Source of the DNA: Rhizorhapis sp. SPR117
GTDB lineage: Bacteria > Pseudomonadota > Alphaproteobacteria > Sphingomonadales > Sphingomonadaceae
Assembly: GCF_021742065.1 (NCBI RefSeq)
Contig: NZ_JAKKIE010000082.1
Coordinates: forward strand, 1 to 11,922
Direction of reading: 5' to 3'
Length of the DNA: 11,922 nucleotides
Both the position numbers and the translations under genes were made by a program. The notes below the pieces were generated by a model. That model was given only the letters and a program-made list of their open reading frames with translations, did no database searches and was not told the origin of the DNA. Position 1 is the first letter of the stretch, and each line of letters starts with the position of its first letter. Positions 1 through 11,922 of the stretch are shown here, piece by piece.

Positions 1-71
1 TTACTGCCTACCGTGGGCGTCCATCGCCGACCTTACTGCAAAGTTGCGAGCGGCGCAGACTGTCCAGATAA
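1..71. other. Unrecognised sequence beyond the ardC breakpoint
   Basis: ArdC homology stops at about position 72, and the sequence to its left does not resemble the expected ArdC C-terminus in any minus-strand frame. I read all three frames: they give a short tail ending at 33-35 or unrelated residues. The sequence has a short AAAGTTGC-containing stretch at about 40-48 that recalls insertion-sequence ends, but I cannot find a complete terminal repeat. It is therefore either the edge of an insertion or rearrangement, or a deletion joint. No gene is called here. Confidence 0.45.
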
Positions 72-782
72 GGCGACGAGCTCTTCGAACGCATAGGCCT
101 TGTCGCCGAAGCGCTTGCCGAAGGTGCGGGCCAGCCGGTCGGAGTGGCCCGACCAATGGACGGTCTCGTGACATCTCGTCGACGCGTACAGATCCATGCT
201 GCGGAACGCGGTGCGGCTTGGCATCTGGATATGGTCGAAGGTCGGCGTGAAATAGGCCTGGTTGCCGCCATGGCGGACGTCGGCGGGTATCGCGTCGAAG
301 AAGGCGTCGATCGCCGCTTGCCGCGTGGAGGGTTTCACCGGCGTCTCCGGCTCTTCGGGCGCGTAGAAATAGGCCGGGAGCGCATCGATCTGGTCGGCAT
401 TGAAGACGACGTAGTGGCGAAGGAAGCGGATGTTCTTCTCGACCTCCTTGCCGGTTTCGGGATGCTCCTCGGTCTTCTTGAACGAGGAATAATAGACCGA
501 GATCGCGCCGGTCTCGCCGCGCCGGACATTGGCGCCGAGCGCCTCGGCCTGGCGATAGGTCATCCAGAAGCGCGAGCGGTAGCCCATCGCATCGCCGAGC
601 GCCCAGAGATAGAGCGTGTTGATGCCGGTGTAAGGCGTCCCGCAGTGCCGGAGCGGGCGTCCGCCGGCGCCGCTGCACCGCCAGGGTCTCGACCAGGGCG
701 GAACGCCTTCCTCGAGCTTGCGGATGATGAAATCCGTGATTTCCGCGGCGACGTCGCGGCTGGACCGACGTGAAGCTGACAT
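33..782 (-). CDS. ardC: ArdC-like antirestriction protein, C-terminally truncated
   Basis: ArdC-family proteins are carried by plasmids and conjugative elements. They pair an N-terminal ssDNA-binding domain (DUF1738) with a C-terminal zincin-like metallopeptidase domain and protect incoming DNA from restriction. Here residues 1 to about 130 have the N-terminal features (DVAAEITDFIIRKLEEG, PWSRPW, YTGINTLYLW), and residues 205-209 are the metallopeptidase HETVH, followed by WSGHSDRL. The start is ATG at 782, chosen over an upstream in-frame ATG at 848 because GGAG sits 8 bases before it and homology begins there. After EELVA (residues 233-237), where relatives continue for roughly 50 residues, the frame runs into 12 unrelated residues and stops. 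At 249 aa it is short for the family (about 300) and lacks the region after the EEL motif, where a third zinc ligand would be expected, so it may be inactive. It lies 84 bases downstream of the parB-like gene on the same strand, probably in one operon. Confidence 0.8.
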   Translation of the reverse strand: MSASRRSSRDVAAEITDFIIRKLEEGVPPWSRPWRCSGAGGRPLRHCGTPYTGINTLYLWALGDAMGYRSRFWMTYRQAEALGANVRRGETGAISVYYSSFKKTEEHPETGKEVEKNIRFLRHYVVFNADQIDALPAYFYAPEEPETPVKPSTRQAAIDAFFDAIPADVRHGGNQAYFTPTFDHIQMPSRTAFRSMDLYASTRCHETVHWSGHSDRLARTFGKRFGDKAYAFEELVALSGQSAPLATLQ

Positions 783-812
783 GGTGGGAACTCCGCTGCG
801 GGGGAAAGGGAA

Positions 813-842
813 ACCGCCGACGCGTGTTTGCGCGCCGGCGGT
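813..842 (-). terminator. Stem-loop between parB-like gene and ardC
   Basis: ACCGCCG (813-819) pairs with CGGCGGT (836-842), and CGCG (821-824) pairs with CGCG (831-834). The result is an 11-bp stem with one A/C mismatch and a 6-base loop. Read on the minus strand it is followed by TTTCCCTTT, a poor U-tract. It could be a leaky terminator or an mRNA-processing structure lowering ardC expression relative to the upstream gene. The pairing is seen; the function is inferred. Confidence 0.4.
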
Positions 843-866
843 CAGCACTCCAGGAGGTGAGAGGCG

Positions 867-2936
867 TCAGGCCGCGAGCGCGTCCTGATCGTCCAGCTGA
901 GGTTCGCCATCGGCGTCGTTCACCGCGACCGTCTCCTGATCGCCGTCCTGGTCTTCGGGCTCGTCGTCGACATCGAGATCGTCGGCGGGCGCAGAATCGA
1001 GGAACTTCATCGCGTTCGGGACCCAGGCGAGCGCCGCGTCGCGAACCTCCGGCTCGACGATCGCCTCCCCGGCGAAGAGCTTGGCGCACGATTCCGAGAT
1101 TTCGGACTTCTTCATCGTTGCGTGACGCGCCGTGAGCGCCGCACCGCCGACATCGGCGAGCAAGGTCAGGATCGAACCCTTGCTGACCCGGTCGAAGAAG
1201 TTCTCCGAGGTCGGCCGCCACCAGCTTGCGACATCGATTTCCATGATGGTCGCAAGCCGGTTGTGCAGCGGGGACTGCTCGGCGCGGGAATTCGGCGCTT
1301 CGAGCGACATCGCGACGATATAGGCGAGCCAGGCGGCCTTGGCGTCGTCGTCGAGACCGCGGAAGGCCTCGAACCGGTCGACCTGCGACTGGTACTCGGT
1401 CCAGCCGGCATCGAGCCCGTCATGGGCTTCGGCGAGATAGCTACGGGCGCGGGTCGCAGGCTGCTCGCCGGTGACCGGGTCCTGGGGCGAGCGAGCGCGA
1501 ATGGTCGAGCCATAGGCGCTTTCGGCGGTCATGCGATCGTCGATCATGACGAAGAGCGCATAGTCGAGCGCGAGCGCCGGGTGGCTGAGGAGCGTCGCTG
1601 CCAGGACGTCGCGCCGCTGCATCGCGAGTTCGTCGTAGAGCCGGGCGCTGAGCGGCTTGCCGCCCGGTGCCACCGCTTCCGGTCGGGAAGCCGGGGTTGC
1701 GGATTCCCTGCCGGCACCGCTCGGCCGGCTGCGCGAGCCTTTGTCCGCGGTGTCGCCCGTCTCGTCCTCGGTGCCGCCGATCCGGATCGGCTCCTCGCTG
1801 TAATATTCGGCGTCGAGCACCATTTCGCCCTTGGGCGTCAGCTTGAGGAAGGCGCCGACCAGCGGCCGCAGTTCGTCCGGCAGGACCGGCGCGACGTTGC
1901 GGATCGCATGCTCCTCGGCGCTGAGCGCGTCATATTCCTGGTCCAGCGCCTTATAGGCGTCCTCGCCGATGGCTTCATCGTCCATCGCCACGGAAATCGC
2001 CTGCTGACGTTCCGCGATCGCCTCGAGCCGGGCTTGCTGTTCCTCGGTCAGGTCCGCGGCGGGCAGGATGACGCGATAGAGGCCGGCGGCGGCGCTGTGG
2101 GTATAGTTGGACGCGATCGGACGGATCCAGCCGAGGCCGAGTTCCTCACCGACGCGCTTGGCTTCCGCCTCCATGATGTCCGCGGCGAGCCGCTGCGCGA
2201 TCTCGGGATTGACCCACTTGTCGCCGCTGTCGCTGAAGAGGTCGCGATCGACTTTGCCGCCGGCGTCCGCGTAGCGGTCCTCGCCGACCAGGATGGCGAC
2301 GGGATCCGTCGAGTTCATGGTTTCGTTGGCGATGACACGGCGGATGGTGTCGGCGTTGGAATAGCTGGTGCCGTAGCTGTTCCAGACGAGCAGCTGCTTC
2401 TCCTGGTTTTCGGTCGACGCATAGGCCTTGGCGACGTCGAGCGTGATCGTGCCTTCGCTCAGCGCCTCGAAAATCGGTTCGGCGAGCGTCGCAAGGCGCA
2501 GGCGGCCCTCGACGAAGCGGCGGGTGAGGCCGAAGCGCTTGGCGACGCCGTCGATGTCGCCCGTCAGCCCGATGAAATACTGGAACGCCCGGCATTCCTC
2601 GGCCGGCGTCATCTTGAGCTGGTGGAAGTTGGCGGCCGTCGACGTCTCGGACAGGGTCGCCTCGTCGCCGACCAGGACCTTCACGGGAACGTCATAGGTC
2701 TCGGGGTCTATCACGCCGCGCTCGGCGAGCAGGCGCAGGCCGCGCAGGCGGCGACCGCCGTCGAACACCTCGAAGGTGCCGCGCGGTTTCCGGACGGGCG
2801 TGACGAGCAGGTTCTGCAGGACGCCGCGCGCTTCGAGGTCGGCCGCCATCTGCGGGATTTCGAGCAGTTCGTCGGGTCGCTTGCGGACGTTGATGGGCGA
2901 AAGCGTGAGCTTGGCGAGCTTAACGGATGCGGTCAT
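867..2936 (-). CDS. Large ParB-like DNA-binding protein
   Basis: A 689-aa member of the ParB/Spo0J N-terminal-domain superfamily. Residues 5-110 form the ParB domain: LSPINVRKRP, then DGGRRLRGL (59-67, equivalent to the GERRxR nucleotide-binding box), then TAANFHQLKMTPAEE (100-114, equivalent to the ENxxR box). A helix-turn-helix follows at about 127-150 (GDIDGVAKRFGLTRRFVEGR). The rest has no clear match: a mixed helical region, a low-complexity Ser/Pro/Gly/Glu linker near residues 385-425, a helical C-terminal domain and a strongly acidic tail (last ~40 residues). Canonical ParB is about 300 aa, so this is an extended, element-borne form that probably acts in segregation, copy control or regulation. 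No parA is adjacent in this window. The start is ATG at 2936. An upstream in-frame ATG at 2951 overlaps the GGAG ribosome-binding site (2945-2949 area) and is less likely. It is divergent from the PLD-like gene and upstream of ardC. Confidence 0.8.
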   Translation of the reverse strand: MTASVKLAKLTLSPINVRKRPDELLEIPQMAADLEARGVLQNLLVTPVRKPRGTFEVFDGGRRLRGLRLLAERGVIDPETYDVPVKVLVGDEATLSETSTAANFHQLKMTPAEECRAFQYFIGLTGDIDGVAKRFGLTRRFVEGRLRLATLAEPIFEALSEGTITLDVAKAYASTENQEKQLLVWNSYGTSYSNADTIRRVIANETMNSTDPVAILVGEDRYADAGGKVDRDLFSDSGDKWVNPEIAQRLAADIMEAEAKRVGEELGLGWIRPIASNYTHSAAAGLYRVILPAADLTEEQQARLEAIAERQQAISVAMDDEAIGEDAYKALDQEYDALSAEEHAIRNVAPVLPDELRPLVGAFLKLTPKGEMVLDAEYYSEEPIRIGGTEDETGDTADKGSRSRPSGAGRESATPASRPEAVAPGGKPLSARLYDELAMQRRDVLAATLLSHPALALDYALFVMIDDRMTAESAYGSTIRARSPQDPVTGEQPATRARSYLAEAHDGLDAGWTEYQSQVDRFEAFRGLDDDAKAAWLAYIVAMSLEAPNSRAEQSPLHNRLATIMEIDVASWWRPTSENFFDRVSKGSILTLLADVGGAALTARHATMKKSEISESCAKLFAGEAIVEPEVRDAALAWVPNAMKFLDSAPADDLDVDDEPEDQDGDQETVAVNDADGEPQLDDQDALAA

Positions 2937-3121
2937 GGGAAGGAGCTCCATCTGGCGTCCGGATCATCCCGGACACCAGCTCCGTCCCCCCTTCCCTTTC
3001 CCCGATTGGCTTGCGGCGAACTTGCGGGCGGCTGAGCCGCCGAGCGATCGCCTTTCGGGCAGGCTCGATTTTTACTGTCGGTGAACCGGGGAGCGATTAG
3101 GCTTGAACCAAGGGGGTGCGT
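2937..3121. other. Divergent intergenic region
   Basis: About 185 bases separate the minus-strand parB-like gene from the plus-strand PLD-like gene, so both promoters should lie here. Besides the dyad at 2952-2979 there is a perfect GGCGGC-TGA-GCCGCC hairpin at 3027-3041 and a C-rich tract at 2985-3000. A weak plus-strand promoter match is TTTACT (3071-3076), an 18-base spacer and GATTAG (3095-3100). The -10 match is poor and I do not call it separately. AGGGGG at 3111-3116 is the ribosome-binding site that decides the downstream GTG start. Confidence 0.4.
2952..2979 (-). promoter_or_regulatory. Dyad in the leader of the parB-like gene
   Basis: CTGG-c-GTCCGG, a 6-base centre ATCATC, then CCGGAC-a-CCAG. 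This is a 10-bp inverted repeat with one mismatch, ending only 3 bases from the ribosome-binding site of the ParB-like gene. As RNA it would form a hairpin abutting the Shine-Dalgarno sequence. As DNA it could be an operator or parS-like site bound by the protein itself. The symmetry is directly visible; the role is inferred. Confidence 0.4.
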
Positions 3122-5473
3122 GTGAATCCGCTTGATCTGATCTCGGCAGCGCCATGGAAGCGCGCTGCCTTCACGACCTATGCGCTTTCGCTGTCGTTCT
3201 TCGAGGCGGTGCTTCTCGACGCGCTGCTTCGCGGGGGTGGTCGCAATGCCCTCATCCTGGCCGATCCGGAAGGCGTGCGCGCCGGCCTGAGCGAGGAAGG
3301 CGCGCGCAGGGTCGGCCGCGACTATGAGATCGAAGCGGTGGCCTGTGCAAATCACGGGGTGTTCCACGCAAAAGTGGGCGCGCTGTTCAGCGACGACGAT
3401 GCCCATCTGCTTGTCGGATCGGGCAACCTGACTTTCGCTGGCTGGGGCGGCAATCTCGAGCTGGTCGAGCATCTGCATCCAAGCTTCGCGGCGGACGCCT
3501 TCGACGATGCGGCGGCGTTTTTCGAACAGCTCGCCGCGTCGGCTCAGATCATCACGACGGCAGGGCCCGCCTGCGAGACGATCGCCGGTTCCCTGCGACG
3601 ATCGGCCCAGGGAGAGCCTCGGGCGGGCAATATCCATCTGCTGCACAGCCTCGATGCGCCGATCGCGGAACAGTTGGCGCTCTATGCCGACGATCTTGGC
3701 GGCGTGACCCGCCTCACGGCGGTCTCGCCCTATTACGATCTACGCGCCGACGGGCTGGGTGCGCTCGCGACGCTGCTGGGAATCGAAAAAGCGCATCTCC
3801 ATGCCCATCCCGCAGGAACGGTCCGCGGTCTGGGTTCGAATGCCTGGCCCTTCGAGGGCGGACCCAAGTGGCAGCCGGTCGATGTCGCTGATGCGTTCGG
3901 CCATGATGACAGACGGCTCCATGCCAAGTCGATCGAACTGATTTGCCGCAAAGGACGCCTCCTTCTCAGCGGCAGCGCCAACGTGACGCATGCCGGTCTG
4001 TTCGGGCGAAACGTCGAGGCCGGGGTGCTCCGGGTCCAGCGGGGCAGCAAGAGCTACTGGGTCACGGCCGCGGGAACGGCCCCTGCCCGCCTCCCGGCGG
4101 ACGCGCTGGACGAGAACGAGACGAGCGACTCCGCGGTCGGAATCCTGAGCGCCTCGCTGGAAGGAGAACGGATAGCGGGCCGCGCGCTGACACCAAGGCT
4201 TGGCGGGAACGCAAGCGCCGTGCTGCGAACCCCCAGGGTATCCCATGCGCTGGGTCCGGTAGTGGTCTCTGGCGACGGCGATTTCCAGCTCGACGCGCCG
4301 GGCATCGAATTCGAAAGCTGGGAAAACGGTCGTCTGATCCTCGGACTTGAGCAAGGCGGCAGGCGCTGGGAAGGCTTCGTGTCGATTGCGGCGGCGCTCG
4401 AGCTGATCCGGCGCACAGGTTCGATCGCAACCCGGCTCATGGCGATGCTCGCCGGCACCGAAACACCGACCGACGTCGCCGCCATCCTGGCGTGGTTTCG
4501 CGAGGATCCGAGTCGCATGCCAGCGTCCCTCGGTATCGGCGGTGGCGGTAGTGGCGGCCGGCCAGACGGGACCGAAGGCATGGTGACGCTCGCCGACCTC
4601 AATGCGGCTGCCCTCGGCGCCAATTTGCTGTCCGGCGCGGCCGGAGAGGGAACATCGTCCGCGTGGCGGCACACCATGGCCCTGATCCGTGCCGTGTTCA
4701 GACAGTCGCGCGGTCCCTGGGGGGCCGGCGGCGAAACCGACGATGACGACGACGACGATGAAAAGGACCGCGAGAAACGAGCGAGGTCTGAAGAAGCGGC
4801 GAACTATCGGTCGCTCCAGATCTTCGACGAACTGCTGACGACCATGCTGGCGTCTGAGACCGCGGGTCGTAACGCGCTCATGGCGCTGTCGCTGTCGCAT
4901 TTCCTGGCCGACCGGATCAGACCGGCACCGGCCAAGGTGCAACTCTGGCTCGACAAGGTGTTACCGCAGATCGCCGCGCTTGACGGCCCCGAAAGCGACC
5001 TCGCTGCCGCTTCCATCCTCCTTCATCATGCCGCCGACCGGCGGGACGACAATGCCATTCGGGCGCGACGCTATTTCCTGCGTCGCGGCATCGATCCGGC
5101 CACCGTTGCCGTCTCTCCAGATGTGATCCCGGCTTTCATGGCGTTGCTCGGCCAAGGCATCGACCTCGACGGTTTTCTCGGCGAAGTGCTGACGGCAAGG
5201 ACCATGGGCGAGCAGATCGACGCCTATCTTGCCGCCGGCGATGGGCATGGTCCCGATGTCGGATTTGATAGCCTTCGCTCTTCGCCGCACTGGCCCAGTC
5301 TTGACCGGGCGCTGCGCGATCCCGCCTCGTTCGCCAAGCTGATGATACTGGAGACCTTCCGAGCGTCGTGCCCGCGTTGCCATATGCGGCTGCCCCTTGC
5401 GGCCGGGGAAGATCTGCGGCTGCGGGGATTGGCGAGCTGCTGCGGCCGAATCCTGCTCAATCGGGATTGCTGA
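3122..5473 (+). CDS. PLD-superfamily (HKD-type) protein, putative defence nuclease
   Basis: A 783-aa protein with two phospholipase-D half-sites. The first is H82-A-K84 followed by GSGN (99-102) and LTFAGW. The second is H267-A-K269 followed by GSAN (284-287) and VTHAGLFGRN. Two such half-sites normally form one active site that cleaves phosphodiester bonds. Nucleases of this superfamily include BfiI, and DrmC of the DISARM defence system is also a PLD-type protein. Neither half-site has the Asp five residues after the Lys seen in canonical HxKx4D. Residues ~310-530 are beta-rich then helical and unrecognised. A run of seven Asp (540-546) leads into a charged helical segment, then an alpha-helical region. 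The last ~35 residues hold CPRC (750-753) and CC (773-774), a zinc-ribbon-like end. There is no signal peptide or membrane segment, so it is probably cytoplasmic. GTG at 3122 is preferred because AGGGGG lies 5 bases upstream; GTG at 3116 is an alternative. Five bases separate its stop from the next start, implying one operon. PLD fold: confident. Defence role: inference from context. Confidence 0.7.
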   Translation: MNPLDLISAAPWKRAAFTTYALSLSFFEAVLLDALLRGGGRNALILADPEGVRAGLSEEGARRVGRDYEIEAVACANHGVFHAKVGALFSDDDAHLLVGSGNLTFAGWGGNLELVEHLHPSFAADAFDDAAAFFEQLAASAQIITTAGPACETIAGSLRRSAQGEPRAGNIHLLHSLDAPIAEQLALYADDLGGVTRLTAVSPYYDLRADGLGALATLLGIEKAHLHAHPAGTVRGLGSNAWPFEGGPKWQPVDVADAFGHDDRRLHAKSIELICRKGRLLLSGSANVTHAGLFGRNVEAGVLRVQRGSKSYWVTAAGTAPARLPADALDENETSDSAVGILSASLEGERIAGRALTPRLGGNASAVLRTPRVSHALGPVVVSGDGDFQLDAPGIEFESWENGRLILGLEQGGRRWEGFVSIAAALELIRRTGSIATRLMAMLAGTETPTDVAAILAWFREDPSRMPASLGIGGGGSGGRPDGTEGMVTLADLNAAALGANLLSGAAGEGTSSAWRHTMALIRAVFRQSRGPWGAGGETDDDDDDDEKDREKRARSEEAANYRSLQIFDELLTTMLASETAGRNALMALSLSHFLADRIRPAPAKVQLWLDKVLPQIAALDGPESDLAAASILLHHAADRRDDNAIRARRYFLRRGIDPATVAVSPDVIPAFMALLGQGIDLDGFLGEVLTARTMGEQIDAYLAAGDGHGPDVGFDSLRSSPHWPSLDRALRDPASFAKLMILETFRASCPRCHMRLPLAAGEDLRLRGLASCCGRILLNRDC

Positions 5474-5478
5474 ACGTG

Positions 5479-6972
5479 ATGGATCTGAATGATCTCCTCG
5501 ATGTCGCCCGCACCGCCGGCGAGCCCCGGCCGGTCGACAGAAGCAAGGTCGGCATGGGCGGCGTGGATCCGCTCGGTCTGCGCCAGATCAATTTCGGCCT
5601 GATGGACCGGGTGCTCCCTGACCTTAACAACGTGGCAAGCCACATCCGGCCCTATACGCTGATGGCCTGGGCCTGGCGGCGCGTCCGCCATATCCTGGAG
5701 CGCGGAAGGCGACAGAGCGCACAGCCCGAGGAAATGCGCGATTTCGTCGACCGCATCGAAGCGATCTACGCCTGGTCGCAGTTCCTGATCGATCCGAAAG
5801 CCGACATACCTGGAGCACAGGCCATGCGCCCGATGCTGGATGCCTTGCGCTATCGCTTTGGCGGCGAGGAATGGGAAGCCCGGCGGAACATGCGACGCTA
5901 TTCCACCGGCTTCATATCGCCGCTGAACTACGGCCCAAGCCTGCGCACGATGGGCTGGTTGATCCCGGTCGAGGGCGCCGCTGGCATATTCCAGCCCGAT
6001 CCTGCCCTCGAGCCGGTGCTCGCCGCTTTCGAAAAGCGCTTCGAGGGTGAGCTGGACCACGAGGCGTTCAATCGCTTCGGAAGCGTCAGCGTGAAGCGGG
6101 CGGACGCCGAGCGCTGGGGTAAACTCTGGACGATGGACAAGCCTCGCGCGGCCGAAGCGAAGGCCATGTTCGTCAGGCTCGGCGGCGAACGCGCGGCGCC
6201 CGCCCGCCAGAAAGGCGTCGCTCTGATTCAGGCTGCCTTTGCGGATCTCGCGGACGAGGAGGCGACCTACGAGGATATCAGAATGCGCATGGCCGATCGG
6301 GCCGACGCATGGAGCAGTGCGAACGACCGCCCGATCGCGGCGGACGAATGGAGAGCGGTCCAGATCCGGCAGCTGTTCCGGCTCGCGCTCGAAGGCCTGT
6401 TCTATTGGACGATCGGCGCGCTTCTGCCTGGTCCTCGTTCCACAGGGCAGCTCGCACAGGCCTTCATCGATGCCCTCGACGAAGCGTCATTGGCGGAGAG
6501 CGCTGGAGACTGGATTCTCGCGTCGACGGATACCGCGAATCCTGTCGAGCATCTTCGCTCCCTGCAGAAAGTCCTGCGCGACCAGGAACAGCTTCCGGCG
6601 GCCATTGTCGCGGCCCTTGCTCTCTGCCTCCGGGAAGCGCCGAACCAGGGTCATCCCTTCGAGAACCCCGATCGATTGCCCCTCAGCCGGGCCAAGAGGG
6701 AGGCGGAAAGCTGGCGTGAGCTCTCCCCGGCCGGTTTCGTCGGGCGCGTGCTCGAGATCTGGATCATGGCGCAGCATGCCTATTGGTCGGTGGGACGGGG
6801 CCTGGCCGACGCTCGCAATCGGGGCAAGACGATCCTCCGTTTGCGGATTGTCATGGACGAGGGCGGATGGACGCTAACGCCGGGCACGACGCGCCAGGGC
6901 AATCCTCCAGAGCCGACCCCGGACCGGCTCGAAACGGCGACGAATCTGCTCGTCGAATGCGGGCGCCTCTAG
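5479..6972 (+). CDS. Uncharacterised helical protein, partner of the PLD-like protein
   Basis: A 497-aa protein with no catalytic motif that I recognise. The clearest block is residues 31-66, PLGLRQINFGLMDRVLP, then LNNVASHIRPYTLMAWAW. This arrangement (a Pro-Gly-Leu-type lead, 'LPxLNNV', then an aromatic 'RxYxxMAWAW' helix) recalls N-termini of uncharacterised proteins such as DUF6361 found beside PLD-like proteins and helicases in defence-type loci. That resemblance is from memory and unverified. The remainder is mostly amphipathic helix; a moderately hydrophobic stretch near residues 297-312 (LFRLALEGLFYWTIGALL) looks like a buried helix rather than a membrane anchor. ATG at 5479 (or GTG 5476) follows the previous stop by 5 bases with only a weak GGGA upstream, which favours translational coupling and a stable stoichiometry with the PLD-like protein. 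The frame is open upstream into the preceding gene, but that part is out-of-frame overlap. It could be a scaffold, target sensor or specificity subunit; none is shown. Confidence 0.65.
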   Translation: MDLNDLLDVARTAGEPRPVDRSKVGMGGVDPLGLRQINFGLMDRVLPDLNNVASHIRPYTLMAWAWRRVRHILERGRRQSAQPEEMRDFVDRIEAIYAWSQFLIDPKADIPGAQAMRPMLDALRYRFGGEEWEARRNMRRYSTGFISPLNYGPSLRTMGWLIPVEGAAGIFQPDPALEPVLAAFEKRFEGELDHEAFNRFGSVSVKRADAERWGKLWTMDKPRAAEAKAMFVRLGGERAAPARQKGVALIQAAFADLADEEATYEDIRMRMADRADAWSSANDRPIAADEWRAVQIRQLFRLALEGLFYWTIGALLPGPRSTGQLAQAFIDALDEASLAESAGDWILASTDTANPVEHLRSLQKVLRDQEQLPAAIVAALALCLREAPNQGHPFENPDRLPLSRAKREAESWRELSPAGFVGRVLEIWIMAQHAYWSVGRGLADARNRGKTILRLRIVMDEGGWTLTPGTTRQGNPPEPTPDRLETATNLLVECGRL

Positions 6973-6989
6973 CGACACGCGAGTGTCGC
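6972..6989 (+). repeat. Perfect hairpin at the stop codon of the operon
   Basis: GCGACAC (6972-6978), tetraloop GCGA (a GNRA loop), GTGTCGC (6983-6989). The stem starts on the last base of the TAG stop codon. No U-tract follows, so it is not an intrinsic terminator by itself. It may stabilise the 3' end or block RNases. A second imperfect stem, CGACCCGA (7034-7041) with TCGAGTCG (7049-7056), lies further on before the terminator. Confidence 0.45.
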
Positions 6990-7083
6990 ATCCGTGCAAG
7001 GAAATGCAGGCGCGTTACGATACGATCTTGCTGCGACCCGAGGGGCCTTCGAGTCGAAAGTTTCGGCGGCCTCCCACTCATAA

Positions 7084-7117
7084 AGCCTGCCTGGTCCTGC
7101 CGGGCAGGCTCTTTTTT
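7084..7117 (+). terminator. Rho-independent terminator of the PLD-like operon
   Basis: AGCCTGCC (7084-7091) pairs with GGCAGGCT (7103-7110). Inside, a G·U wobble and GG/CC extend the helix around a TCCTG loop, and C plus six T residues follow (7112-7117). The GC-rich stem with an immediate U-tract is a textbook intrinsic terminator. It ends transcription of the two upstream genes and separates them from htpG. Confidence 0.8.
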
Positions 7118-7192
7118 CGCCTGCCGATCATTGTTCGTCCAAGTCCACATGCCGGAGCGGCGCGTGATCGAGGAATGTCTTCACCGCGTCTG

Positions 7193-7221
7193 CTTGAAAG
7201 CATTTGGCGGTCTCGCCATCT
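7193..7221 (+). promoter_or_regulatory. Heat-shock (RpoH, sigma-32) promoter of htpG
   Basis: CTTGAAA at 7193-7199, a 14-base spacer, then CGCCATCT at 7214-7221. This matches the RpoH consensus (CTTGAAA, N13-14, CCCCATNT) at every -35 position and all but one -10 position. Transcription would start near 7228, giving a leader of roughly 33 bases before the htpG ATG. The motif fits the identity of the gene, since htpG is a classical RpoH target. Confidence 0.8.
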
Positions 7222-7260
7222 GATCGGCGATCGAAACCCAGGAGATTGTGGAAAGAAGCC

Positions 7261-9141
7261 ATGACGACGACGTTGGATGCTGCGCCTGAAACCCGTTCCT
7301 TCGAAACGGACGTTGCCAAGCTGCTGCACCTCATGGTGCACTCGGTCTATTCGGACAAAGATGTGTTCCTGCGCGAACTCATCTCGAACGCCGCCGATGC
7401 CTGCGAGAAGCTTCGCTATGAAATGCTGAGCCATCCCGAATTGGGCTCGGGCGAACTCCCGCGGATCACAGTGACACTCGACCCCGACCAGCGGCGGCTC
7501 ATCGTCGAGGACAATGGCATCGGCATGAACGAGGCCGAGATGATCGAGGCGCTCGGCACGATTGCGCGATCGGGGACCAAAGCCTTCATGGAACGCGTCG
7601 CTTCGGCGAAAGACGCTGAAGGCGCGCAGCTGATTGGGCAGTTCGGCGTCGGTTTCTATTCGGCGTTCATGGTCGCCGACAAAGTCGACGTGTTCTCGCG
7701 AAGGGCCGGTGGGGATACCGCGGCGCATTGGTCGTCGGACGGTCTTGGGACCTACAGCGTCGAGATTGCCGAGCTTGCGGATGCCCCCACGCATGGCACC
7801 CGGGTCGTGCTGGAGCTCAAGGAAGACGCGGCCCAATATGCGCAGCGCTTCAACTCCGAAGGGATCATCAAGGCGCAGTCGGGCCACGTCCCCGTGCCGA
7901 TCTTCCTGCTGGAGAAGCCCGATGCTGAGCCGGTCCAGATAGGCGACGGCGCCGCCCTTTGGACGAAGCCAAAGTCCGAAATTAGCGAAGAGGATTACAC
8001 CGACTTCTACCGCAGCGTGGCCGGGCAGTTCGACAAGCCTGCGCTTACGCTGCACTATCGGGCCGAGGGTCTGCACGAATATTCCGTCCTCGCCTTCATT
8101 CCGGAGATGAAGCCTTTCGACCTGTTCGACCCGGAACGTCACGGGCGGATGAAGCTCTATGTCAAACGGGTCTTCATCACCGACGAAGCCGAAATCCTGC
8201 CTCGTTACCTCCGGTTCGTGCGCGGTCTCGTCGACTCCAGCGACATTCCCCTGAACGTGTCGCGGGAGATGATCCAGGAGAGCCCCGTGCTGGCCGCGAT
8301 CCAGAAGGGCGTGGCGAACCGGCTGCTGTCGGAGCTCGAGAAGCTCTCGACGAATGACGCCGATGCTTACCAGCAATTCTGGATGAATTTCGGGGCGGTG
8401 CTGAAGGAGGGGCTGTACGAGGACTATGGCCGGCGCGAAACGCTGCTGGGTCTGGCGCGCTTCAAGACGACGACCTCCGGCACCGAGTGGCGTTCGCTGA
8501 AGGACTATGTCGCGGCGATCAAGGAAAACCAGACGGCGATCTACTATGCGACCGGACCCGATCTCGATCGTCTGGCGTCCTCGCCTCAGCTCGAGGGCTT
8601 CCGGGCTCGCGGGATAGAGGTGCTGCTGCTGACGGATCAGGTGGACAGTTTCTGGGTGACCGCGGGACTGGACTTCGAAGGGAAGCCCTTCAAGTCCGTG
8701 ACGCAGGGCTCGGCCGATCTCGGGCTCATACCTTTGACCGAAGGCGATGCGCCGGCCGCCTCCACGTCCGATGAGGTTTCCGGCTTCATCGAGTTCGTGA
8801 AGGAGGTGCTCAAGGACGAGGTGTCGGACGTGCGGGCCTCCGAGCGACTCACCGAAAGCGCGGCATGCCTGGTTGCGCCCGAACACGGAATGGACAGACA
8901 GCTCGAGAAGCTGCTGGCAGCCTCTGGGCGTGGCGGGACGGCGGCACGGCCCGTGTTGGAGATCAACCCTCGTCACGATCTTGTGCAGAAGCTTGCCGGC
9001 CTTGCTGCAGATGCGGACCTGCGCGAGGACTCGGCTCGGCTGCTTCTCGACGAGGCGCGGATTGCCGATGGTGAGCTTCCGGCCGATCCGCGCGGTTTCG
9101 CCGCCCGATTGGGAAGGATCTGGACGAAGGCGCTCGCATAG
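7261..9141 (+). CDS. htpG: Molecular chaperone HtpG (bacterial Hsp90)
   Basis: A 626-aa cytoplasmic ATP-dependent chaperone, full length against about 624 in E. coli. The N-terminal GHKL ATPase domain shows FLRELISNAADACEKLRY (36-53, catalytic Glu39), DNGIGM (84-89), GTIARSGTKAF (99-109) and IGQFGVGFYSAF (125-136). The middle domain has YVKRVFITDEAE and the near-invariant YLRFVRGLVDSSDIPLNVS, followed by a C-terminal dimerisation domain. HtpG homodimers refold and remodel client proteins. ATG at 7261 is chosen because GGAAAG lies 5 bases upstream and homology begins soon after; the open frame extending to 7204 overlaps the promoter. It has its own RpoH promoter and a terminator before it, so it is a separate transcription unit from the PLD-like pair. 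On a mobile element it is likely an accessory copy, either stress-tolerance cargo or a helper for neighbouring proteins. No damage is seen. Confidence 0.95.
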   Translation: MTTTLDAAPETRSFETDVAKLLHLMVHSVYSDKDVFLRELISNAADACEKLRYEMLSHPELGSGELPRITVTLDPDQRRLIVEDNGIGMNEAEMIEALGTIARSGTKAFMERVASAKDAEGAQLIGQFGVGFYSAFMVADKVDVFSRRAGGDTAAHWSSDGLGTYSVEIAELADAPTHGTRVVLELKEDAAQYAQRFNSEGIIKAQSGHVPVPIFLLEKPDAEPVQIGDGAALWTKPKSEISEEDYTDFYRSVAGQFDKPALTLHYRAEGLHEYSVLAFIPEMKPFDLFDPERHGRMKLYVKRVFITDEAEILPRYLRFVRGLVDSSDIPLNVSREMIQESPVLAAIQKGVANRLLSELEKLSTNDADAYQQFWMNFGAVLKEGLYEDYGRRETLLGLARFKTTTSGTEWRSLKDYVAAIKENQTAIYYATGPDLDRLASSPQLEGFRARGIEVLLLTDQVDSFWVTAGLDFEGKPFKSVTQGSADLGLIPLTEGDAPAASTSDEVSGFIEFVKEVLKDEVSDVRASERLTESAACLVAPEHGMDRQLEKLLAASGRGGTAARPVLEINPRHDLVQKLAGLAADADLREDSARLLLDEARIADGELPADPRGFAARLGRIWTKALA

Positions 9142-9153
9142 CGCCTGCCCGGA

Positions 9154-9188
9154 GGTCTGGGTGCGGTCCCCGGGGCGGCGCTCAGACC
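9154..9188. terminator. Stem-loop between convergent htpG and ykgJ-like genes
   Basis: GGTCTGGGTGC (9154-9164) pairs with GCGCTCAGACC (9178-9188) over 11 positions, two of them G·U wobbles on the plus-strand transcript; the loop contains CCCCGGGG. It lies 13 bases past the htpG stop and overlaps the stop codon of the convergent gene. There is no U-tract on either side, so it may help transcription end or act as a barrier between converging polymerases rather than being a canonical terminator. Confidence 0.35.
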
Positions 9189-9943
9189 GTGCTAACGCCG
9201 GGATCAAACGCTGCCTCGTAGAGGGCGCGTCTCACCGGCTCGTCGAGATAGCCGTCCTGTTCGACCCGGAGCGCGGAGGGAAAGACGTCGCCGCCGGCGA
9301 GCCACGCCGATTCCGCATCCGGATGCGAAACCGCATCGGCAAGCGCGGTCGCAAGATCGAACCTGTCGGTGCAATAACCGGCGTTGAGGAGCGCTCCCTG
9401 AAGCGCGATTTCATAGGCTGCGCGCAGGGCGACCGATGCGAGCGCAGAGGGGATGACGGCTTCGTCCGGAAGGCTGCAGGCGAGCCGGCACTGGTCCGCG
9501 TCGAGCGACATGGTGGTGCGGCAGACGATCGGACGGCTGGGATGCGCCGTGCAGAGACCATCGGCGAGGACCGCGCAGGGCGCCAGACTCTCCAGGAGCG
9601 GTTTATCCCAGCCCTCACGGCGCCGCCTGGCCAATGCCGGAATGCCATCCGTCACGCCGGTGGGCAGATTTCGCGCGAGGAAGAGGATTTCCGGCGCTGT
9701 CGCCGAGACGCGGGTGTGGCAACACCAGGCACAGCGCGGACCGCATGCCGCTTCGGTCCAAACCTGCTCGGGCGTTCGCCGCTCGATCGCGTCATAGAGA
9801 TAGCCGAAGAGCGGATCGAGGGTGCGGGCGGAGCGGGCCTCGTCGATGAATCCCCTTAGTGCGCGCATCTCCCGAACGATCTCGCTATCGGGGCGAATGT
9901 AAGGCTGTACCTCGCCGCGAGACGAGGAATCCACGTCCGTCAC
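9182..9943 (-). CDS. YkgJ-family cysteine-cluster protein
   Basis: A 253-aa protein carrying the signature of the YkgJ/UPF0153 zinc- or iron-chelating cysteine cluster: CGPRCAWCC at residues 67-75 (Cys67, 71, 74, 75), then PC at 122-123, LC at 130-131 and the typical 'RPxxCR' at 137-142, with another Cys at 152. These residues probably bind a metal or an Fe-S cluster; the biochemical role of the family is not established. The N-terminal ~60 residues and the C-terminal ~100 are helical and not recognised. The start is GTG at 9943 because AGGAAG lies 8 bases upstream and a nearby ATG (9948) is out of frame and hits a stop at once. It is convergent with htpG (40 bases between stops) and on the same strand as the helicase gene, 138 bases downstream of it. 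It may be backbone or cargo. Confidence 0.75.
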   Translation of the reverse strand: MTDVDSSSRGEVQPYIRPDSEIVREMRALRGFIDEARSARTLDPLFGYLYDAIERRTPEQVWTEAACGPRCAWCCHTRVSATAPEILFLARNLPTGVTDGIPALARRRREGWDKPLLESLAPCAVLADGLCTAHPSRPIVCRTTMSLDADQCRLACSLPDEAVIPSALASVALRAAYEIALQGALLNAGYCTDRFDLATALADAVSHPDAESAWLAGGDVFPSALRVEQDGYLDEPVRRALYEAAFDPGVSTV

Positions 9944-9973
9944 GGCATGATCTTCCTGTTACACTATCGTTAT

Positions 9974-10010
9974 TTGCCCGCAACGAGCCTGATAGGTTAT
10001 TTTCGGGCAA
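9974..10010 (-). promoter_or_regulatory. Inverted repeat upstream of the ykgJ-like gene
   Basis: TTGCCCG (9974-9980) and CGGGCAA (10004-10010) are perfect 7-base inverted arms with centres 30 bases apart, about three helical turns. The segment between is AT-rich for this window and lies 31-67 bases before the GTG start, where a promoter is expected. It is a candidate operator for a dimeric regulator; nothing else supports it. Confidence 0.3.
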
Positions 10011-10039
10011 TCCGCCACATCGCGCCGTCCATTTCTTGT

Positions 10040-10059
10040 GATTTTACACGAGTTTACAA
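10040..10059. repeat. Tandem 10-base direct repeat with TTTACA core
   Basis: GATTTTACAC and GAGTTTACAA are adjacent and match at 8 of 10 positions, placing two TTTACA cores exactly one helical turn apart. They lie in the AT-rich gap between the helicase and the ykgJ-like gene. They could be a same-face regulator site or part of the promoter; with only two copies it could be chance. Confidence 0.3.
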
Positions 10060-10081
10060 CTGCGAGCCCCCCGCTCCATCG

Positions 10082-11922
10082 CTAGGCGAGAAGCTGACCG
10101 AGGACGGCTTCCGCGGTCGCCATCGGCACGAACATGCGCGTGCGATACTGGATCACCTCGGTGAAGCAGCCGATCGACTTGAGCCAGGGCAAGCGGTCGT
10201 GCGGGCAACCCACGAGTTCGATCCGCTGGGAGCCGTTGACGACCGAGCGCTTGATGGTGAGCGGGAACGGATGTGAGACGTCGACGCTGCGCCCGGACGT
10301 GACCGCCTTGGCGACGGCGTCCGCCGGCAGCGCCTCGGAACGATCGATGCCGAGCTTGGTGAACAGCTGAGGCACGTGATCGTCGAACACGAGACGGCCG
10401 AGCCAGGAGTGCCCTTCGCCATCGACGATGCGGTTCACCGCCATATGATCGCTCGGCAGCGCCGACCAGATCGGCAGAAGCAGGCCCGTCGCGAGCCGGA
10501 TCGTCTCGCTGTCGACGGTCTGCCGGGCGGCCTCCACCTCGTCCGACCAGGTTGCCGTGAAGGCGTCGCGCGTCACCTCCTCCCAGGAGGATTCGTAGAG
10601 ATCGTCCTCGCGCATATATTCGTTGCGCGTGGGCCGCATCATCTCGACGCGGGGGATCGGCGTGCCCTCCTTTTCCTCCATGAGCGAACGCGCCCGTGTC
10701 CTGAGCGCAACCTTGCCCGACTTGCGGTTGATCATGAAGCCGGCACTGGCATCGCCGTCGGCGATCCGCAGGATGCGCTCGAGCGAGACCGGGTTGCGGC
10801 GTCGCGCGATCTCGATGGTGAGCAGATGCGAGGTTGCGCCCGTGCGGGGATCGGTCCGCAGCACCACGTCGTCGATCAGCGTGGCCTTGTCGACGAGGAT
10901 CGTCTCGACGCCGACATCGAGGCGGCCGGCTTCGCGCGCGGCCGAGACGCGGGTTTCGATCAGCGACAGGAATTCGTCGAAGATATTGTTCTGCAGCGCG
11001 ATCGGCAGGGCGAGGATGCGATTCAGCCAGCGCTGGATGGGCGGCATCTCGTCCTTGAGGACGCCATCCTTGTCGCAGAGCTCCAGGCCGGTGCGATGCT
11101 GGAAATCGTCAAGCGTGGTGCTCGAGAGCTTGCCGGCCGCGAGCAGGTCGAACCAGGAGAGGAGCGCGGCGCAGGCATATTCGCTTTCGAGATTGTCGGC
11201 CGGGTCGAAGAGCCCCTGCCCGCCCGTCTGCCGCTGGCCGCGCGTCAGCGCCCCGAGGCTGTCGAGGCGCCGCGCGATCGTGCTGGTGAAGCGCAGCTCG
11301 CCCTTGCAGTCGGTGGTCACCGGCCGGAACAGCGGCGTTGTCGCCTGATGGGTTCGGTGGGTTCGGCCGAGCCCCTGGATCGCGCGATCGGCGCGCCAAC
11401 CGGGTTCGAGGAGCAGGTGGACGCGCTGTTCCTGGTTCATGACGTCGAGCGAGGCATGATAGCTGCGGCCCGTACCGCCGGCGTCGGAGAAGACCAGCAT
11501 CCGCTTTTTGCCGGCCATGAAGGCCGCGGCCTCCGCCTGGCTGGTCCGCGCCGAGCGGCTTTCGAGCTTCTGGCGCCCGTCGCTTGCGGTGATGAGCCGC
11601 TTGGTGCGACCGGTGACCTCGGCGACATTGTCATGGCCGAAATGCTCGAGCAGCGCATCGAGCGCCGACATGATCGGGGGCATGGCGCAGAGCGTCTCGA
11701 TCAGCGCGTCGCGTGCGGCCTGGGCCTCGGGATTGTAGACCGGGTGCCCGTCGTCATTCACCATCGGAAGTGAGCGCGGCGTGCCGGTATCATCCTTGAA
11801 GACGCGCATCTGCCGGGTCGGGAAGGCACGCTCGAGGTAATCGATGATGTATTCTTTGCAGTCGCAGTTTATGTCGAGCGTGGTGGCGGGAGGCGCAGGT
11901 TTCCTTCGGTTTTCCATGATTT
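10082..11922 (-). CDS. Strawberry-notch-type helicase, C-terminal part (runs off the window)
   Basis: At least 613 codons of a large superfamily-2 helicase related to Drosophila strawberry notch; bacterial and phage/plasmid forms are often 1,400 aa or more, sometimes fused to a methyltransferase. The helicase C domain shows VFSDAGGTGRSYHA (142-155, numbering from the Met at 11917), then EPGWRADRAIQGLGRTHRTHQ split as EPGW (171-174) and QGLGRTHRTHQ (181-191), the motif VI region. FTSTIARRLDSLGALTRGQRQTGG follows, again typical. The last ~350 residues are the family's C-terminal extension. The Met at 11917 is probably internal: the five bases upstream contain no stop, no ribosome-binding site is available, and the ATPase (Walker A/B) half is missing. 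So the gene is partial at the window edge, not necessarily truncated in nature. ATP-driven DNA remodelling in element maintenance or transfer is inferred. It is on the same strand as the parB-like and ardC genes, separated from them by the cargo block. Confidence 0.8.
   Translation of the reverse strand, partial: IMENRRKPAPPATTLDINCDCKEYIIDYLERAFPTRQMRVFKDDTGTPRSLPMVNDDGHPVYNPEAQAARDALIETLCAMPPIMSALDALLEHFGHDNVAEVTGRTKRLITASDGRQKLESRSARTSQAEAAAFMAGKKRMLVFSDAGGTGRSYHASLDVMNQEQRVHLLLEPGWRADRAIQGLGRTHRTHQATTPLFRPVTTDCKGELRFTSTIARRLDSLGALTRGQRQTGGQGLFDPADNLESEYACAALLSWFDLLAAGKLSSTTLDDFQHRTGLELCDKDGVLKDEMPPIQRWLNRILALPIALQNNIFDEFLSLIETRVSAAREAGRLDVGVETILVDKATLIDDVVLRTDPRTGATSHLLTIEIARRRNPVSLERILRIADGDASAGFMINRKSGKVALRTRARSLMEEKEGTPIPRVEMMRPTRNEYMREDDLYESSWEEVTRDAFTATWSDEVEAARQTVDSETIRLATGLLLPIWSALPSDHMAVNRIVDGEGHSWLGRLVFDDHVPQLFTKLGIDRSEALPADAVAKAVTSGRSVDVSHPFPLTIKRSVVNGSQRIELVGCPHDRLPWLKSIGCFTEVIQYRTRMFVPMATAEAVLGQLLA

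Follow-up and report, generated by a model that had tools for sequence, protein, structure and literature searches.

A candidate two-gene defence module related to Azaca and lacking its helicase gene in Rhizorhapis sp. SPR117

Azaca, encoded by zacA, zacB and zacC in that order, is listed as an anti-phage system in two reviews (PMC10952713, PMC12926258). According to the former it shares a PLD domain with Mokosh, ZacC is among the helicases listed in PMC12278908, and the latter, a review of 2026, gives the mechanism of Azaca as unknown. Here we describe two adjacent genes, open reading frames ORF1 and ORF2, in a stretch of 11,922 nucleotides from Rhizorhapis sp. SPR117 (GCF_021742065.1, contig NZ_JAKKIE010000082.1, positions 1 to 11,922; hereafter the window), which probably constitute a defence module akin to Azaca but without its helicase.

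An earlier note on this DNA had reported a PLD gene with two half-sites followed, 5 bases on, by a gene for a 497-aa partner, and both reading frames were recovered together with the HAK, GSGN and GSAN motifs (Table 1). The double half-site region occupies about residues 13-315 at the N-terminus of ORF1, with HAK (H82, K84), GSGN (S100, G101, N102) and E113 in the first half-site and HAK (H267, K269), GSAN (S285, N287) and E299 in the second; the H-x-K...N...E set of PLD-superfamily nucleases is complete in each, and none of the residues named here varies among the aligned sequences (99 of 99). The Pfam model PLDc_2 is matched at 2.4e-5, below the Pfam cut-off. In the first half-site the residues are spaced (20 and 11) like the aligned H, N and E in BfiI, a PLD-type restriction endonuclease (PDB 2c1l), whose catalytic residues H105/K107, N125 and E136 coincide in the alignment with the second half-site of ORF1. 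Further along the protein lie an acidic stretch at about residues 538-549 and a C-terminal cysteine motif (C750 in 99/99 sequences, C774 in 96/99 and C753 in 79/99), whose conservation would be compatible with a small metal site.

The best PADLOC match of ORF1 is ZacB (7.3e-15, hmmscan), and a profile-profile comparison of the ORF1 family with ZacB (12 sequences) scored 99.1% (E 1.3e-18, 272 columns), as against 0.1% for reversed ZacB. A second family of PLD proteins, from loci in which the partner gene precedes the PLD gene (the swapped order, as opposed to that of the window), matches the ORF1 family at 99.9% (E 1.3e-35, 421 columns). When a tree was built from the PLD region of 33 sequences, the window-type and ZacB groups each received a support of 100 and the swapped-order members fell between the two without forming one group.

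The relationship of ORF2 to Azaca is less direct. Apart from a sub-threshold match to HWE_HK, no family in Pfam, PADLOC, NCBIfam or PHROGs matches ORF2 directly, and no direct match to ZacA or PF19888 (DUF6361) was found at E<=1. However, the partner family of the swapped-order loci, which comprises 767 proteins and carries an N-terminal motif resembling DUF6361, provides a link: it aligns with the ORF2 family over 448-465 columns (97.9%, E 4.8e-13, rising to 99.0%, E 2.8e-18, with more members) and with ZacA (14 sequences) at 90.2% (E 1.5e-6), and the two partner families combined match ZacA at 91.0% (E 1.1e-6) over the N-terminal 110 columns, with reversed-ZacA controls at 0.1-0.5%. At one swapped-order locus (L062) the partner is in two pieces, the first of which matches ZacA (5.7e-8), DUF6361 (1.2e-4, below the cut-off), the swapped-order family (1.2e-71) and the ORF2 family (2.4e-5), while the second has no ZacA match. 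The earlier view that the pair matches none of the familiar PLD-containing systems is therefore not supported, as ORF1 is related directly to ZacB and ORF2, via this intermediate family, probably to ZacA.

ORF2 itself has a conserved N-terminal motif, DPLGL...LP.LNN....RP....W, and no enzyme motif was found in it. An assignment as HWE histidine kinase was rejected (E 0.0083, below the Pfam cut-off), and AP-3 subunit and POU matches in profile searches of the PDB were taken as chance. Relatives of ORF2 (P0003, P0006, P0008 and others) are named 'septum formation inhibitor-activating ATPase' by NCBI, which is likely to be a misannotation; the name was rejected for ORF2, in which no ATPase family scores above cut-off and the RGKT near residue 448 is without the first glycine of a P-loop.

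PF19888 matched 4 of 150 genomes. At the three loci fetched, a second gene and then a helicase come after the DUF6361 gene; two of these (L068, L069) are full Azaca loci by PADLOC, with ZacA, which is the DUF6361 protein, at 5.7e-134 and 1.3e-77, ZacB at 7.5e-171 and 1.5e-105 and ZacC at 0 and 2.2e-251, and the third, scanned with the ZacA model alone, gave 5.2e-89. The fourth match (G559) has internal stops. Among 11 further DUF6361 loci on plasmids, an annotated helicase lies two or three genes downstream in 10, with an annotated PLD gene between in 8; in L082 a large gene at the helicase position is annotated as hypothetical. A ZacC profile (12 sequences), by contrast, detected no ZacC in the sequence fetched for the 50 loci described below, which reaches at least 3.3 kb downstream in 39 of the 45 paired loci checked and on both sides in 34 of 45; it returned only generic helicase matches of about 1e-9 in L011, L015 and L037.

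These 50 loci, the window included, were collected from ORF2 relatives on Genome Taxonomy Database (GTDB) contigs (34 loci), from plasmids and from genome searches. The PLD and partner genes are adjacent on the same strand in 46 of them, a count from partly dependent loci (L002, L003 and L014/L017 are closely related, L025 and L073 represent one and the same place, and the window resembles L001, L035 and L036, as these do one another, at 95-98% in this region). In three of the four unpaired loci (L014, L018, L034) the contig begins within ORF2 or shortly ahead of it, and in the fourth (L033) there is a damaged remnant of ORF2 and no PLD gene. The co-occurrence that the earlier note had proposed to follow across genomes is thus upheld, and the genes, rather than being singletons in housekeeping loci, which that note had named as the finding that would speak against it, are strictly paired and lie in defence-rich surroundings. 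The PLD gene comes before its partner in 39 of the 46 paired loci (the window type) and after it in 7; among the swapped loci, L063 has a 100-aa frame between the genes, in addition to the divided partner of L062.

Long PLD matches are rare in the genomes searched, being found in 3 of 396 Sphingomonadales and 2 of 288 Hyphomicrobiales genomes, and all five of these 684 genomes also carry ORF2 (two of the five, G001 and G005, being centre genomes picked as known carriers of the pair); one further genome of the first order has a 50-residue ORF2 remnant and one more of the second an ORF2 fragment. At most five first-look candidates were scored per genome in these searches, and rare copies may have been missed. 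In all, 17 Sphingomonadales genomes had a PLD match, and beyond the 3 long ones these are weak or fragmentary: eight weak matches fall within frames some 410-443 aa long (G409, G194, G332, G309, G140, G362, G372, G343), G360 has a 56-residue fragment, and the other five are weak matches in G234, G263, G336, G348 and G404. These last five and two weak relatives of ORF1 from a separate search (G002, G003) all have an ORF2-like gene upstream, i.e., the swapped order. Two genomes carry both types of pair, G002 at L002 and L058 and G003 at L004 and L057. ORF2-like remnants without PLD were seen at G125:C1:3202468-3202617 (L072), L033 and G593:C242 (L056), which suggests repeated loss of the system.

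Pairwise distances of the PLD and ORF2 proteins are correlated over 45 pairs (rho 0.887, against a maximum of 0.42 in 1000 label shuffles), a value to which common ancestry of the host genomes may contribute. Purifying selection acts on both genes, with dN/dS against five relatives of 0.114-0.150 for ORF1 and 0.084-0.116 for ORF2. Among about 8000 scored candidates each, 584 protein relatives were found for ORF2 and 424 for ORF1. The 34 GTDB-contig loci are all alphaproteobacterial except for L018 (on a 9.6-kb contig of a metagenome-assembled genome) and L031, which belong to the Acidobacteriota; several copies of the pair lie on contigs of 0.4-3.5 Mb and some on plasmids beside parB, and no ORF2 relatives were found in phage records or viral contigs.

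The surroundings of the pair are rich in defence genes. At 12 of the 34 GTDB-contig loci, 28 larger neighbour proteins within 10 kb were scanned against PADLOC (a 29th, in L025, is the PLD protein itself and was left out of the count), and 18, spread over 8 of the 12 loci, matched defence models at E<=1e-30. None of 30 control proteins did so; for these, ten 20-kb stretches were taken from other parts of nine pair-carrying genomes, and the three longest proteins of each stretch were used (seven of the nine genomes being among the 12 scanned); with neighbours chosen by size and partly by eye, this is a strong contrast and not a formal enrichment test. Four Zorya I genes lie directly upstream of the pair in L020, Mokosh genes near it in L021, a type I restriction-modification system in L032, and GajA (Gabija) with a UvrD-type helicase in L009; PDC-M26 lies upstream in L011, with DruE-like, DrmD/DpdE-like and DrmMI genes downstream, and L012, L022 and L023 have a single strong match each. 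In L023 and L030 there are, in addition, genes of ordinary metabolism or transport nearby.

Some of these neighbours stand in closer arrangements with the pair. In L026 (4192-7635) and L027 (2-1147), which belong to a distant branch, the gene for a YhaN-like AAA_27 ATPase (assigned by a Pfam scan of L026 only) overlaps the longest PLD frame by 16 bases, which suggests a larger operon there. Directly upstream of the swapped-order pair of L058, on the same strand, are genes for a TmtA-like protein and a UvrD-like helicase (10409-16368), and in both L011 (11799-21473) and L015 (11755-21506) the pair is followed by a DruE-like helicase, a DrmD/DpdE-like helicase and a DrmMI-like methylase, a mixed cluster with no clean match to one named system in a PADLOC scan of L011 only. 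YhaN-like, Zorya, Mokosh and DruE-like neighbours vary by locus and were rejected as fixed components.

Several findings count against placing the pair with Azaca and among defence systems. The likeness of ORF1 to ZacB is confined to the nuclease half, its C-terminal half being without a ZacB match, and the ORF1-family model, although it matched the ZacB of L069 at 1.4e-6, missed that of L068 at E<=0.1. Window-type ORF2 on its own matched ZacA at only 25.6% (E 7.4e-4), or 5.2% with only 3 DUF6361 sequences, and the region the two share is the N-terminal part. The match of ORF1 to BfiI is not significant (E 1.8). As to the surroundings, 4 of the 12 neighbourhoods (L016, L024, L026, L030) have no strong PADLOC match, several neighbour matches are to generic helicase models, and the neighbours, averaging about 970 aa against about 700 for the controls, were not size-matched.

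The reaction of BfiI is metal-independent and proceeds through a phosphohistidine. By analogy, we presume ORF1 to be a ZacB-like nuclease of the PLD superfamily that would cut DNA by this chemistry, its two half-sites forming, within one chain, a single metal-independent active site and cleavage passing through a covalent phosphohistidine. ORF2, a distant ZacA/DUF6361-like partner, probably binds ORF1, and on account of its position and its relation to ZacA it is likely to be a recognition or gating subunit, which may decide when, or on which DNA, ORF1 cuts. As there is no ZacC helicase, recognition and cleavage would take place without a motor of their own driven by ATP, or with a borrowed one. 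The original interpretation as a nuclease with a sensor or scaffold survives in so far as a nuclease-like protein and a non-nuclease partner form one unit, for which pairing and neighbours make an anti-phage or anti-plasmid role likely; its view that the pair resembles no familiar PLD system is not supported. More tentatively, the ZacA-like/ZacB-like pair might be a self-sufficient, motor-free immune nuclease that needs no translocation driven by ATP to recognise infection or foreign DNA, representing either the core of Azaca before a helicase was gained or its reduced form, in two gene-order lineages across the Alphaproteobacteria with copies in the Acidobacteriota.

A tight operon of two strictly paired genes, one of them for a nuclease-like protein and some copies on plasmids beside parB, could also be read as a toxin-antitoxin-like or plasmid-maintenance module, in which ORF2 would restrain a nuclease toxin, ORF1, loss would kill plasmid-free cells and any effect on phages would be secondary. 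We consider this unlikely, given that several copies lie on the 0.4-3.5 Mb contigs, that both proteins are large, that known defence genes stand beside the pair in 8 of the 12 scanned loci and that ZacB is part of Azaca, treated as an anti-phage system in the reviews cited above. It is likewise improbable that the pair is an accessory of larger neighbours (e.g., the DruE-like/DrmD-like/DrmMI cluster, the YhaN-like ATPase or Zorya) and does not stand alone; the overlap with the start of the PLD frame in L026 and L027, the three large genes shared by L011 and L015 and the TmtA-like and UvrD-like genes of L058 would be accounted for in this way, but the pair is constant whereas its third partner differs between loci, and on plasmid pLA4 of Novosphingobium pentaromativorans US6-1 the pair is alone between backbone genes.

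Enzymes of the PLD fold can act on phospholipids, and PADLOC matches ORF1 only in part and ORF2 not at all, both of which would suit a non-defence enzyme pair, for example in lipid metabolism or in DNA repair on plasmids. Such a role is very improbable in view of the relationship of ORF1 to ZacB, the strength of the defence neighbourhood against the control, the restriction of long ORF1 matches to 5 of 684 genomes in the two orders and a residue spacing that fits the nuclease BfiI, albeit with the non-significant score. The probable explanation remains a defence module of the Azaca type that has no helicase.

A natural helicase-free version would show which part of Azaca senses and cuts, and the pair offers a simpler complex for biochemistry than Azaca. 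PADLOC-DB 2.0.0 (2023) has no model for ORF2 and matches ORF1 in part only, and annotation with that database would therefore probably miss the system; the septum-formation ATPase label on ORF2 relatives misleads annotation further. A helicase-less Azaca was not found in the titles and abstract openings among the matches listed, a scope that lies mostly outside the subscription literature, so that a prior description is possible, and DUF6361 occurred in no paper among the matches listed. A preprint on YprA helicases (PMC12458937) and a survey of BREX (PMC12839542) mention PLD nucleases in their accessible parts, though not this pair.

Table 1. Features of the window, with coordinates counted from its first nucleotide.
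Feature	Coordinates	Strand	Remarks
ArdC	33..848	-	flanking backbone gene
ParB-family backbone gene	867..2936	-	left flank of cargo site; start at 2951 possible; scanned as 867-2933
Pair cassette, inferred extent	3001..7001	.	from empty site in Sphingobium sp. TKS plasmid and ends of the US6-1 pLA4 match
ORF1	3122..5473	+	783 aa; GTG start at 3122, TGA stop ending 5473
ORF2	5479..6972	+	497 aa; ATG start at 5479
Terminator-like hairpin	7084..7110	+	12-bp stem then CTTTTTT; between ORF2 and HtpG
HtpG (Hsp90)	7204..9141	+	NCBIfam NF003555, 696 bits; separate cargo
CxxCxxCC-type gene	9182..9943	-	between pair and strawberry-notch gene; separate cargo
Strawberry-notch-type helicase, C-terminal part	10082..11917	-	right-flank backbone gene

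The window shares 97.5% identity, from base 51 through to its last base, with a plasmid of Sphingopyxis sp. 113P3. As the earlier note had it, the pair runs against a mobile-element backbone that includes an antirestriction gene, ArdC, ParB and strawberry-notch genes all being on the minus strand; a second in-frame GTG for ORF1 is present at 3116. The note's terminator was also located, and its hairpin has the longest stem of the 8 terminator-like sites in the window, although such sites are not commoner than the 7.1 expected by chance. In agreement with the same source, scans of ORF1 and ORF2 against Pfam, PADLOC, NCBIfam and PHROGs gave no match to a family of helicases, methyltransferases or Cas proteins. 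The HtpG and CxxCxxCC-type genes beside the pair had gone unmentioned there.

The parB/strawberry-notch junction of sphingomonad plasmids (window 2997-10119) is a cargo site. It was surveyed around parB in eight plasmids, and in five of these (CAP-1, S. xenophagum p2, S. paucimobilis, S. morindae and Sphingobium sp. TKS) parB adjoins strawberry-notch with nothing annotated between; on the TKS plasmid the match to window 3000 joins that to window 10081 across about 10 bases, i.e., the site is empty. Two short frames occupy it in S. yanoikuyae and a NERD protein in S. xenophagum p1; S. cloacae has other genes after parB, an exonuclease/YhaN pair among them, and lacks strawberry-notch within the stretch inspected. 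On US6-1 pLA4 the match stops at window 7001 and restarts at 10087, window 7002-10086 with HtpG being missing. Taken with the empty TKS site, this indicates that the pair and HtpG are two separate cassettes, and HtpG was rejected as a third component as the pair occurs without it in US6-1 and in the fetched stretches L001-L034 (blastp). Of the pair loci inspected, the window and 113P3 are the only ones in which HtpG, a full Hsp90 gene carried as plasmid cargo, adjoins the pair; the other HtpG matches listed from the plasmid collection are htpG genes on 0.9-Mb Sphingobium replicons, at about 77%. In 113P3 a tyrosine recombinase triplet splits the strawberry-notch gene, a single 4.1-kb gene in S. 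paucimobilis (L045), into two parts (L035 25034-32970), and beyond the triplet the last 74 bases of the window (11849-11922) recur inverted at L035 30426-30499 with 97% identity.

Compared with other described systems, the pair bears several partial likenesses. The PLD part of ORF1 matches PDC-M27B (1.8e-11) of the PADLOC candidate PDC-M27, in which B are PLD proteins and C helicases, but the match is partial and the pair is without a helicase of the PDC-M27C type. ORF1 shows a weak PLD-motif likeness to DrmC of DISARM (PADLOC 8.3e-8; NCBIfam 6.1e-8), scoring 32.5 bits against an NCBIfam DrmC cut-off of 133 bits; DrmA, DrmB, DrmD and the methylase were not found among the 7 window proteins (Pfam, PADLOC, NCBIfam), and ORF2 matches no DrmB model. 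Mokosh has an MkoA-type helicase with a PLD domain or, in type II, a single gene; neither protein of the pair matches MkoA, MkoB or MkoC at E<=1, and Mokosh models match only neighbours (L021, L061). BfiI is a dimer in which each subunit contributes a single half-site, and it has a DNA-recognition domain of its own; its H/K, N and E align with the second half-site of ORF1, which differs in holding two half-sites in one chain. It is with Azaca that the pair has most in common, as the ZacA-like and ZacB-like genes are adjacent, the PLD nuclease region is homologous and, in the swapped-order lineage, the order is A then B. However, ORF1 exceeds ZacB in length and differs from it in the C-terminal half, ORF2 is longer than ZacA and alike only N-terminally, and Azaca has ZacC in the order zacA-zacB-zacC; what is new relative to Azaca is that the gene for this helicase is lacking and that the window type has its order reversed to B then A.

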